This document shows, piece by piece, positions 31,265-46,099 of a stretch of DNA of 62,413 nt. The stretch spans positions 1 to 62,413 of the forward strand of contig CALZGM010000022.1 of assembly GCA_945787015.1 (NCBI GenBank), in the 5' to 3' direction. Position 1 is the stretch's first letter. Each line of letters begins with the position of its first letter. Made by a program: the position numbers and the translations under genes. Source of the DNA: an uncultured Roseburia sp. GTDB taxonomy: Bacteria > Bacillota > Clostridia > Lachnospirales > Lachnospiraceae. The notes under the pieces were generated by a model. That model was not told the origin of the DNA and did not search any database. It worked only from the letters and a program-made list of their open reading frames with translations.

Positions 31265-32869
31265 ATGTTAATTAGTATTGTATTGACAGTGCTCGTAGGA
31301 TTGATTTATTTTTATCTGCAGCTACCTGCAATCAACCTGCATTCTGCAGAGTTTTACAGCTTTATCTTTATTCTTTGCGTGGTATATTGCGGTGCGAACC
31401 TGGTGGTTACAGGATTTCGTGCAACGAATGTGAAGGATTATTTTAAGCATTTGATAAAAAAATGTACCATTCCGGTGGCCGCAGTTGTACTGCTGATTGC
31501 CATTGCAATTGTCGGAAGCCTGGCAGGAAGTGTTTTCTTCCGTGCAAAATCATATGCAAAACTGCTTCCGTTTGAGACGGGAGATTTTTCGGCAGAAGTG
31601 CAGGAAGTAACATGGGAACAGATTCCGATGCTAGACAGCCATTCAGCAAATACACTGGCAAATAAAAAAATGGGTGAGCTGTCAGACCTGGTGTCTCAGT
31701 TTGAGGTAGATACCAATTCTGCACAGATTAATTATCAGGACAGACCGGTACGTGCCACATACTTAAATTATGGAGATGTAATAAAGTGGTTTAAGAACCG
31801 GAAGGAAGGTATTCCGGCGTATCTGTTGATTGACATGGTAACACAGGAAGTAACGGTTTGCAGAACGGAAACCGGAATGAAATATTCTCCGTCAGAGATT
31901 TTTAACCGGAATATTTACCGATATTTGCGTTTTTGCTATCCGACAAAAATGTTTTATGATGTAAACTTTGAAGTGGATGAAGACGGCACACCATACTGGT
32001 GCGCGAGCGTTGTAAATAAGACGATTGGCTTGTTTGGCGGAACGGACGTAGTCGGTGCAGTACTTGTAAATGCACTGACAGGTGAACACGAATATTATGA
32101 CATGGAAGAGGTGCCGACCTGGGTTGACCGTGTCTGCAGTGCAAGCCTGATTATGGAACAGTATGATTACTACGGCTTGTATCAGGGCGGATTCTGGAAC
32201 TCTATGCTTGGACAGAGCGGTTGTACCGAAACAACTTCCGGCTATAACTACATTGCGATGGATGACGATGTATGGGTATATACCGGTGTGACCTCGGTAG
32301 GAGGCGATGAAAGTAACCTTGGTTTTATGCTGGTAAATCAGCGTACGAAGGAAGCTCGTTACTATCCGTGTGCAGGAGCAAACGAGGAAGCCGGCATGCG
32401 TTCGGCACAGGGTGCAGTGCAGCAGTTCAGCTATACAGCAACCTTCCCAATCCTTTTGAATTTAGGTGGGGAGCCGACCTACTTTATGGCTTTAAAGGAT
32501 GCTTCCCAGCTGGTAAAAATGTATGCTATGGTAAATGTCAGCCAGTATCAGATTGTTGCGACAGGTACAACAGTTGAAGAATGTCAGGATAATTATGCGG
32601 AACTGATGATTAAGAATGGTATTACACAAGTGGCTCCGGAACCGGAAATTGAGACGGCTGAAGTCAGAGGTAATGTGGCTGAAATTCGTTCTTCGGTAAT
32701 GGATGGCGATACCTGGTATTTTATCCGTCTGGAAAATCAGGCGGTATATTATCTGATTAACGGACGTGAATATCCGCTTGCGACAATCTTAAATGTGGGT
32801 GATAGAGTGGTAATTACTTATGAAAAAGGAACCGGAGAAATGTTAAATGCTATTTCGCTGGAGCGATAA
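31265..32869 (+). CDS. Uncharacterised membrane protein
   Basis: A 534-aa protein with three hydrophobic segments in the first 100 residues (about 1-20, 27-50, 70-95), then a large extracytoplasmic domain rich in aromatic residues. The segment NKTIGLFGGTDVVGAVLVN and the ending GDRVVITYEKGTGEM suggest two beta-rich subdomains, the last being OB-like. I do not recognise the family. AGGGAGG precedes ATG 31265. Its last codons form the outer end of the giant palindrome downstream. Confidence 0.7.
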   Translation: MLISIVLTVLVGLIYFYLQLPAINLHSAEFYSFIFILCVVYCGANLVVTGFRATNVKDYFKHLIKKCTIPVAAVVLLIAIAIVGSLAGSVFFRAKSYAKLLPFETGDFSAEVQEVTWEQIPMLDSHSANTLANKKMGELSDLVSQFEVDTNSAQINYQDRPVRATYLNYGDVIKWFKNRKEGIPAYLLIDMVTQEVTVCRTETGMKYSPSEIFNRNIYRYLRFCYPTKMFYDVNFEVDEDGTPYWCASVVNKTIGLFGGTDVVGAVLVNALTGEHEYYDMEEVPTWVDRVCSASLIMEQYDYYGLYQGGFWNSMLGQSGCTETTSGYNYIAMDDDVWVYTGVTSVGGDESNLGFMLVNQRTKEARYYPCAGANEEAGMRSAQGAVQQFSYTATFPILLNLGGEPTYFMALKDASQLVKMYAMVNVSQYQIVATGTTVEECQDNYAELMIKNGITQVAPEPEIETAEVRGNVAEIRSSVMDGDTWYFIRLENQAVYYLINGREYPLATILNVGDRVVITYEKGTGEMLNAISLER

Positions 32870-33411
32870 AAGTTGCAGAAATGTTCCTTTTCGCATAATT
32901 CGCATATTCAATGCTTTAGAAAATAAGGAGAGTCCCTTTTTAGAAAAGAAGTTTGTGCACTTTGAAGAAAAGTATAGAAATTCTCTTCTCTTTCGCTGCA
33001 ATGTCATTTTATGTACACTAATGGCTTTGACAAAAATAAAAAAATGTCTGACATAGCACGAACATTCCGTTACACCTTCCTAAGAACATCTAAAAGGCCC
33101 GCTTTGACAAAATCGATATAAAATCCGGCTCCCGAAAAGAAGGGTCGTCCGCCGGATTACGTTTTATCAAAGTGGGGCTTTAAGATGTTCTAAGAAAGCT
33201 GTAAGAGGAAATGTCCGTGTCTATGCAGACATTTTTTTATTTTTGTCAAACCTTTAGCGAACATAAATCATCGTATTTTGCAGCGAAAGAGAAGTAGTAT
33301 TTCTTGCTTTTCTTCATGTGCAAAAATTCTTTCTGAAAAGTGACTCTGCTTATTTTAAAACTTCGGAAATGCAAATTATGTAAGAAGAAACATTTCTACA
33401 ACTTTTATCGC
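32863..33411. repeat. Giant imperfect inverted repeat, two ~265-bp arms
   Basis: The whole gap between the unknown membrane protein and the flagellar promoter forms one palindrome. Perfect blocks: 32863-32875 with 33399-33411 (13 bp), 32985-33001 with 33278-33294 (17 bp), 33026-33050 with 33226-33250 (25 bp) and 33123-33129 with 33151-33157 (7 bp). Between them the arms align collinearly with few indels, about three quarters identical by eye. The centre (33130-33150) is a short loop. This is either two inverted copies of one element or an extremely long RNA hairpin. No coding region is seen. Confidence 0.9.
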
Positions 33412-33442
33412 ACCGCATAATTTGAAAACTTTCTGAATACCT

Positions 33443-33470
33443 CTAAGGAAAAGCCGAAATCAGCCGATAA
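33443..33470 (+). promoter_or_regulatory. Sigma-28 (FliA/SigD) promoter of late flagellar operon
   Basis: CTAAG (33443-33447), a 16-nt spacer and CCGATAA (33464-33470), close to the CTAAA-N16-CCGATAT consensus. The first gene is flgM, the sigma-28 inhibitor, as expected for autoregulation of the class III flagellar set. Confidence 0.8.
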
Positions 33471-33516
33471 ATAACGTGAAAGCTATAATAATTTAATGTG
33501 GAAGGAGATGCCTAAT

Positions 33517-33798
33517 ATGCGTATAGATGCTTACAATCAAATCGCACAGATTTACAAAACGAATAAGACCGGTAAGGTGACAAGTGCGGCAAGTGCCTCT
33601 TCTGCCCGTGATGAAGTACAGATTTCATCTTTTGGACGCGATTTCCAAATCGCAAAGCAGGCAGTACAGGAATCTTCCGATATCAGAACTGACAAAGTAG
33701 CAGGCTTAAAAGCAAAAGTAGATGCTGGTAATTATCATGTTGATAACGGAGATTTTGCAAGCAAATTATTGGAAAAATACAATGCATTAGGAATGTAA
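33517..33798 (+). CDS. flgM: Anti-sigma-28 factor FlgM
   Basis: A 93-aa FlgM, which holds sigma-28 inactive until the hook is complete and FlgM is exported. Features: a flexible N-terminus (MRIDAYNQIAQIYK), a Ser/Ala-rich linker and the C-terminal helices with VAGLKAKVDAGNYHVD that bind the sigma factor. ATG 33517 is chosen because AAGGAG (33502-33507) lies before it; the frame is open from 33496. First gene of the operon. Confidence 0.93.
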   Translation: MRIDAYNQIAQIYKTNKTGKVTSAASASSARDEVQISSFGRDFQIAKQAVQESSDIRTDKVAGLKAKVDAGNYHVDNGDFASKLLEKYNALGM

Positions 33799-45882: not shown

Positions 45883-45911
45883 TTGACAAGCCCAATATAC
45901 AATGCTATAAT
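45883..45911 (+). promoter_or_regulatory. Strong promoter of rplJL operon
   Basis: TTGACA (45883-45888), a 17-nt spacer and TATAAT (45906-45911): both boxes match consensus. Confidence 0.9.
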
Positions 45912-46035
45912 GCATAAGCATATTGCCGAAGACAGTAGGTGCCGTAAGGCATAAAGGTAAAACACCTACCGAGGAGATTATAATCATTCAAGATGATTTC
46001 TGCCTCTCTGTCTGCGGACAGAGAGGTTTTTAATA
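45912..46035 (+). ncRNA. L10 leader with attenuator hairpin
   Basis: The leader of rplJ contains AGTAGGTGCC-type and CACCTACCGAGGAG segments typical of the L10-binding leader, ending in a perfect 10-bp hairpin CCTCTCTGTC/GACAGAGAGG (46003-46012/46017-46026) with a T run. L10-L12 bound to the leader is expected to favour termination. Assignment to the L10 leader class is from context and layout. Confidence 0.75.
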
Positions 46036-46099
46036 TTTCGATAAGAATTATAACCTCTAAAGTCTTTTATGCATGAATAATAAAAGGAGGTAAACAATC

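Follow-up and report, generated by a model that had tools for sequence, protein, structure and literature searches.

A 555-base intergenic palindrome in Roseburia probably belongs to a dispersed family of giant insertion elements that are palindromic and non-coding

Dispersed palindromic repeats are already known, as is the correction of imperfect palindromes. In the part of their description drawn on here, the SPRITE, BOX, and RUP elements of Streptococcus pneumoniae are dispersed non-coding repeats with folded transcripts, typically <200 bp long (BOX is modular and runs from 67 to 637 bp) and overrepresented between convergent genes (PMC3049150). The family reported here resembles them by that description, and SPRITE, which is terminator-like, is the nearest positional parallel that we found; in contrast, that part of the description mentions neither arms matched copy by copy nor a terminator duplicated in inverted orientation (PMC3049150). 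Prokaryotic MITEs, as excerpted from their source, share with our element the lack of a gene of its own, the inverted repeats, and the intergenic position (PMC10969869). They differ in that the Roseburia element is an inverted repeat throughout, with outer arms that vary by copy, and in that we saw neither a direct target duplication nor a parent transposase for it (PMC10969869).

Template switching at hairpins can rewrite one arm from its partner and so make several compensatory changes together, which is the likeness to the arms described below (PMC8794818, in the part drawn on). That work covers RNA genes such as those for rRNA and microRNA, and its largest pattern, 59 bp, failed its quality control (PMC8794818); the Roseburia case differs in that its palindromes are dispersed, measure about 520 to 650 bp, and appear to copy flanking DNA as well. 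Palindromes in mitochondrial coding sequences of Nematomorpha likewise combine long inverted repeats with concerted arm evolution, for which template switching was proposed, and the same source, in the part drawn on, cites active maintenance of inverted repeats in bacteria (PMC6649704). Those palindromes lie inside mitochondrial protein genes, whereas the Roseburia family is dispersed and intergenic. A literature search over titles and the first lines of abstracts returned no account of such a palindrome family, that is, of dispersed palindromes of ~520 to 650 bp with copy-specific matched arms and inverted terminator duplication.

We analyzed a window of 62,413 nucleotides from an uncultured Roseburia sp. 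whose genome (G000) is assembled in 59 contigs. An initial annotation of the window had described a giant palindrome across the whole intergenic region, and inverted repeats and folding confirmed it: the palindrome is 555 bases long and takes up all the DNA separating the flgM operon from the 534-aa gene upstream, four inverted repeat pairs (I1 to I4) span the region, a DNA search matched it to itself in reverse (77% over query positions 11 to 565), and its predicted fold as single-stranded RNA reaches -258 kcal/mol versus -112 ± 6.6 kcal/mol for 100 dinucleotide shuffles, none of which was as good (z of -22). Perfect mirror blocks of 25 bp (33026-33050/33226-33250), 17 bp (32985-33001/33278-33294), and 13 bp (the GCGATAAAAGTTG pair in Table 1) exceed anything in shuffled arms (n = 300; longest block, mean of 6.9 and maximum of 12); a 7-bp block that the annotation had also listed does not exceed the length found in shuffled arms. 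The outermost 13 bp hold the last Arg codon and the TAA stop (32867-32869) of the upstream gene, so the palindrome does start in the stop region, as had been stated. It contains no long open reading frame; a 69-codon frame overlaps the left arm.

The 534-aa gene had no Pfam family above the cutoff, and Rfam at gathering scores gave no match at the palindrome; the sole Rfam match in the window is a ribosomal protein L10 leader (45908-46041, 81.8 bits). A terminator pattern (short GC-rich stem plus T run) occurred three times in 32600-33700 versus 0.8 times by chance, one match being the apical hairpin on the minus strand. A promoter scan of the same interval found four sites versus 3.1 expected.

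Table 1. Positions of the palindrome, its parts, and neighboring features in the window
Feature	Position	Strand	Basis or remark
Whole imperfect palindrome, one copy of the family	32860..33414	.	Inverted repeats, fold, reverse self-match
Inner zone, common to other copies	32950..33328	.	Same-side versus arm-arm identity
Apical hairpin AATCCGGC...GCCGGATT	33122..33158	.	Block 33122-33129/33151-33158 and alignment A1
Outer left arm, copy-specific, beginning within the 3′ end of the upstream gene	32860..32949	.	Arm comparisons
Outer right arm	33329..33414	.	Arm comparisons between copies
GCGATAAAAGTTG, with the final Arg codon and TAA stop of the upstream gene	32863..32875	+	Recurs inverted at the far end
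Inverted copy of GCGATAAAAGTTG	33399..33411	-	Mirror-block comparison
Upstream gene, 534 aa	31265..32869	+	Open reading frame
Sigma-28-like site TAAG-N15-GCCGATAA	33444..33470	+	Also present in the G059 empty allele
flgM	33517..33798	+	Pfam FlgM, 7.6e-19

The suggestion that the palindrome might be an unknown repeated element held up, since it is one copy among others that are dispersed. Six sites in G000 carry it, on contigs C22 (the window), C1, C9, C5, C20, and C2 (core deleted on C2), and a seventh holds a collapsed remnant. The family is scattered at gene ends in five related species. DNA-level matches were found in 3 of 98 genomes (G000 counted), all three within the genus. A covariance model of the apex (172 nt, built from 7 sequences), run with stricter filters under which absences are not proofs, matched 5 of 62 genomes of the genus; a family-wide search with it matched 1 of 299 genomes, G000 itself, and none of the 298 others, one of which belongs to the same genus. 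Genome G038 alone gave 12 apex-model matches, with further copies on its contigs C15 and C37 and a collapsed copy on C4. A 19-base pattern occurred in 29 stretches of genome contigs, 7 of which belong to the family and come from two Roseburia MAGs (3 with the whole hairpin and 4 at contig ends). The other 22 stretches and 7 viral matches lacked giant-hairpin energy (three shuffles each) and were taken as chance. Plasmid and phage collections gave no match to the family. Several assemblies break at these hairpins, so such palindromes may be undercounted; in G059, several of contigs C54, C45, C29, C22, C16, C8, C75, and C5 start or stop inside the element, which makes its copy number uncertain.

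The arms of each copy comprise two zones. In the inner zone of eight copies, same-side identity between copies was 0.77 to 0.82 versus 0.69 to 0.77 between the two arms. In the outer zone of the eight copies, arm-arm identity was 0.65 to 0.70 within a copy versus 0.40 to 0.51 between copies and, further out, 0.43 versus 0.26. The outer arms of seven copies gave z scores of 9.3 to 17.4 within a copy versus between-copy means of 3.1 (left) and 1.9 (right), and the outer right arm of the window copy pairs with its own left outer arm far better than with left outer arms elsewhere. L011 was left out of the zone-identity and outer z comparisons, and L040 was left out of the latter. The L032 sequence begins where its contig does, and the initial 54 bases are a perfect mirror of its right arm; it was therefore not used as evidence of compensation, and its inclusion in the zone-identity and outer z comparisons and in the mismatch counts raises the arm-arm figures somewhat. 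(Alignment A1 omits L011 and L040; alignment A2 omits L011 and L032.)

Because outer arms are more alike within copies than between them, simple descent cannot explain them. Their similarity between copies is weak yet above chance, which means that an insertion does not start with entirely novel outer arms. In the inner zone, side-specific differences between the arms are conserved among copies and across species, and arm copying thus cannot act freely there. At the one site compared between close relatives, about eight outer-arm changes separate the G000 C1:30.5 kb sequence, which has lost its core, from its G021 C42 counterpart, and none was compensated when read by eye.

The young copies of G038 showed arms changing together. 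Its 12 cores have a mean column identity of 97%, and the cores of seven of the eight full copies share an identity of at least 0.968 (mean, 0.984). Between the outer arms of each full copy, nevertheless, the longest perfect match (19, 43, 46, 27, 15, 31, 17, and 42 bp, respectively) is found in that copy and in no other member of this set. When 20 other G038 stretches were compared, six of the eight matches stayed confined to one copy; the 31-mer was also present in the C4 copy that has collapsed, and two other stretches contained the 15-mer. L212, L213, L217, L220, and L222, with an arm cut or rearranged, were left out of the core-identity and arm-match comparisons, and L264 was used only for the latter. 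Multi-base coordinated arm changes, which maintenance by template switching requires, are thus present.

Paired changes also occur nearer the center. In the G038 core, 12 of 88 predicted pairs changed on both sides (five of them in the apical stem of one copy), and a separate alignment of the inner zone of related copies gave 14 compensatory pairs of 64. Related copies hence align and show arm covariation, the outcome opposite to the unalignable arms that the initial annotation had named as the mark of a chance or decaying duplication. Both sets of compensatory pairs, and the finding that 16 of 23 copies lie between convergent genes, would be expected if selection for a long hairpin transcript, acting either as a two-way terminator or as double-stranded RNA, kept the arms paired through ordinary compensatory substitutions. 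Exact blocks of 27 to 46 bp private to one copy beside near-identical cores, however, would demand many double substitutions in a short time, and the window copy is not between convergent genes.

We counted arm mismatches as a way to reveal a transcribed strand. Nine copies from G000, G021, and G059 gave 64 G-U versus 73 A-C mismatches (P value of 0.49), a rough count in that the copies share ancestry and some alignments run into flanks; G-U was not in excess, and no transcribed strand was revealed. Selection on one RNA strand should spare G-U, so the equal frequencies leave such selection, and to that extent the annotation's long double-stranded RNA, unsupported as the cause of the pairing. 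Selection on both strands, as could act between convergent genes, would look alike, giving no G-U bias either. Taking these points together, we judge hairpin RNA selection a rather improbable cause of the matched arms. In the inner third of seven G000 and G021 copies (the window copy, L002, L004, L005, L006, L030, and L032), there were 25 A-C versus 8 G-U mismatches; these A-C mismatches are mostly shared by descent and equal G-U on the other strand, which hints at a possible separate function for the inner zone.

Orientation of the flanking genes (open reading frames of at least 70 codons) was convergent at 16 of 23 copies, tandem at 4, the window copy included, and divergent at none, with 3 unreadable and two of the 23 representing the same site in two species; family sites with readable neighbors therefore lie behind genes. 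At the window site, the relative G059 has the upstream orthologue (81% identical), an ordinary terminator, a sigma-28-like site, and flgM, with no palindrome. GAG(C/A)GATAAAA is present in this empty allele too, and by eye its right flank has no inverted counterpart of GCGATAAAAGTTG. The sigma-28-like site, so labeled for its resemblance to the sigma-28 consensus, begins 32 bases past 33411, just as the annotation had it, and this proximity is what would recommend the palindrome as a cis-acting element tuning flagellar transcription. G059 keeps flgM and the sigma-28-like site without it, though, and other copies stand at other gene pairs; a role specific to the flagellum is accordingly not supported, and we regard this reading as very improbable. 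Among upstream-gene orthologues whose downstream DNA was read by eye, flgM came next only in G000 and G059, and fourteen close orthologues have a different, common downstream gene.

Other sites occur empty, filled, or collapsed. In G021, the genes that flank the G000 C9 copy are separated by only about 25 bp. Where G021 has a filled site on C42, joined outer arms alone are present in G000 (C1:30.5 kb) and a short terminator in G022, and the G038 C4 copy has collapsed to about 190 bp. Two features of MITEs are present, namely, inverted repeats over the whole length and a dispersed distribution of many copies, for which unoccupied sites exist in relatives. If the element were a conventional MITE whose terminal inverted repeats are very long, mobilized in trans by a transposase and with arms matched through recent common origin, it would also be dispersed, non-coding, and intergenic. 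Moreover, GGGGYTGTTGCAAAATAC or a close variant forms the end of most G038 copies (18 matches with at most 2 mismatches), and this end may resemble those of IS6-type elements. Yet outer arms match better within than between copies, the reverse of simple descent, and one copy ends in a different terminator, inverted at its two ends (L214, below). Read by eye, no direct target duplication was apparent in the window DNA relative to the G059 empty allele or at six G038 copies with both ends located; element ends are poorly delimited in G000. The end pattern was searched for in five genomes and nine stretches were read by eye, and in these no transposase partner was noticed. We think a conventional MITE unlikely.

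The ends of several copies bear on how flanking DNA becomes part of the arms. L214 carries an exact 43-bp terminator at both ends in opposite orientations. In G011, the same two genes are about 80 bp apart with one small terminator, and four other relatives have one terminator behind the left gene (all by eye); since the terminators differ in all five relatives read, the native one of the two in L214 cannot be told. The flanks just outside L264 are the inverted repeats AACCACAA and TTGTGGTT. By eye, those just outside L221, another G038 copy, also look inverted (AAGATGT/ACATCTT). L218 appears recombinant by eye, with the left arm of one variant and the right arm of another, which suggests exchange between copies that could also spread arm variants. 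In L217, the core is inverted relative to the arms, and in L258, a mid-arm block is replaced on both sides (both by eye). The ends of G038 copies form terminator-like hairpins by eye, and similar hairpins also occur alone in G038 (C5 and C19).

These terminators could alternatively mean that the inner zone inserts into the loop of long palindromes already present in the host, with outer arms that are host terminators. Terminator-like sequence adjoins the inner zone in several copies and directly surrounds the short core of L213 (both by eye), G000 C1:30.5 kb resembles an outer palindrome alone, and the outer arms reach stop codons. The empty alleles read, however, have short terminators only. 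A screen of 436 kb of G000, partly chosen for holding family copies, found at scores of at least 75 the six family copies, the collapsed copy, and one other palindrome (C1:13.75 kb), so that all but one were family members or remnants; three weaker palindromes scored 45 to 48, and shuffled sequence gave none at 44. Insertion into host palindromes is, on this evidence, quite unlikely, and the screen and the relatives of the L214 site led us to reject, as a full account, the idea that the outer arms derive from host terminators alone. The one other palindrome (L175, at C1:13752; score, 75) has arms of ~70 bp and was not placed in the family.

We consider it likely that the palindrome is a mobile one inserted at terminators, whose arms are kept matched and extended by arm-to-arm copying through replication template switching; mobility itself is suggested by the distribution of the family. 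The element would insert at or within the terminator that ends the gene before it, and the inserted hairpin would then cause a replication fork to switch template and copy one arm onto the other. Such copying may keep the arms matched while replacing both together, block by block, and may run outward into flanking DNA until it meets coding sequence. If it continued beyond an arm, the flank on one side would be duplicated, in inverted orientation, on the opposite side, as GCGATAAAAGTTG in the window, apparently a copied host gene end, and the L214 terminator illustrate. The inner zone could be held by selection or by exchange between copies, and copies would end through internal deletion, leaving short terminator-like hairpins. 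A bolder version, doubtful but worth entertaining, is that the gene-free element spreads by virtue of being a hairpin: replication forks that stall at a terminator would switch template into the hairpin, copy it, and come back through snap-back synthesis. Each insertion would then duplicate the target terminator in inverted rather than direct orientation, and the palindrome would go on extending outward through copying of host DNA.

For the cell, the element is probably a large two-way terminator or neutral; its placement at terminators and the lone hairpins resembling G038 ends suggest that it may terminate transcription in both directions. A selected RNA is usually proved by covariation between paired bases, yet this family seems to make coordinated paired changes through the copying of DNA. 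Since a single genome holds many recent copies, it could serve as a natural test bed for the mutational share of covariation. A bacterial chromosome evidently tolerates many imperfect palindromes of about 520 to 650 bp, collapsed copies suggest a source of new terminators, and the family offers a possible case of inverted target duplication.

Some placements and motifs recur among copies. L125 (at the end of G059:C16) and L002 (G000) apparently follow the same gene end with quite different outer arms by eye, which may reflect a shared insertion or repeated targeting. L258 (G038) and L004 (G000) both follow a gene ending ...VEALKS.E, presumably FtsX-like, and their right neighbors differ (by eye). 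Apical hairpins of copies in G038, G053, and G059 have in common an asymmetric internal loop (left side, AACTC; right side, CAAACA), noted by eye in L211 to L224 and L040. The G000 and G021 copies of alignment A1, the window copy included, lack this loop. A mismatch of GAACA with TGTCC at window positions 33060-33064/33212-33216 recurs by eye in G000, G059, G038, and one G053 copy, though not in L032 or L224, and would make G-U on the other strand.
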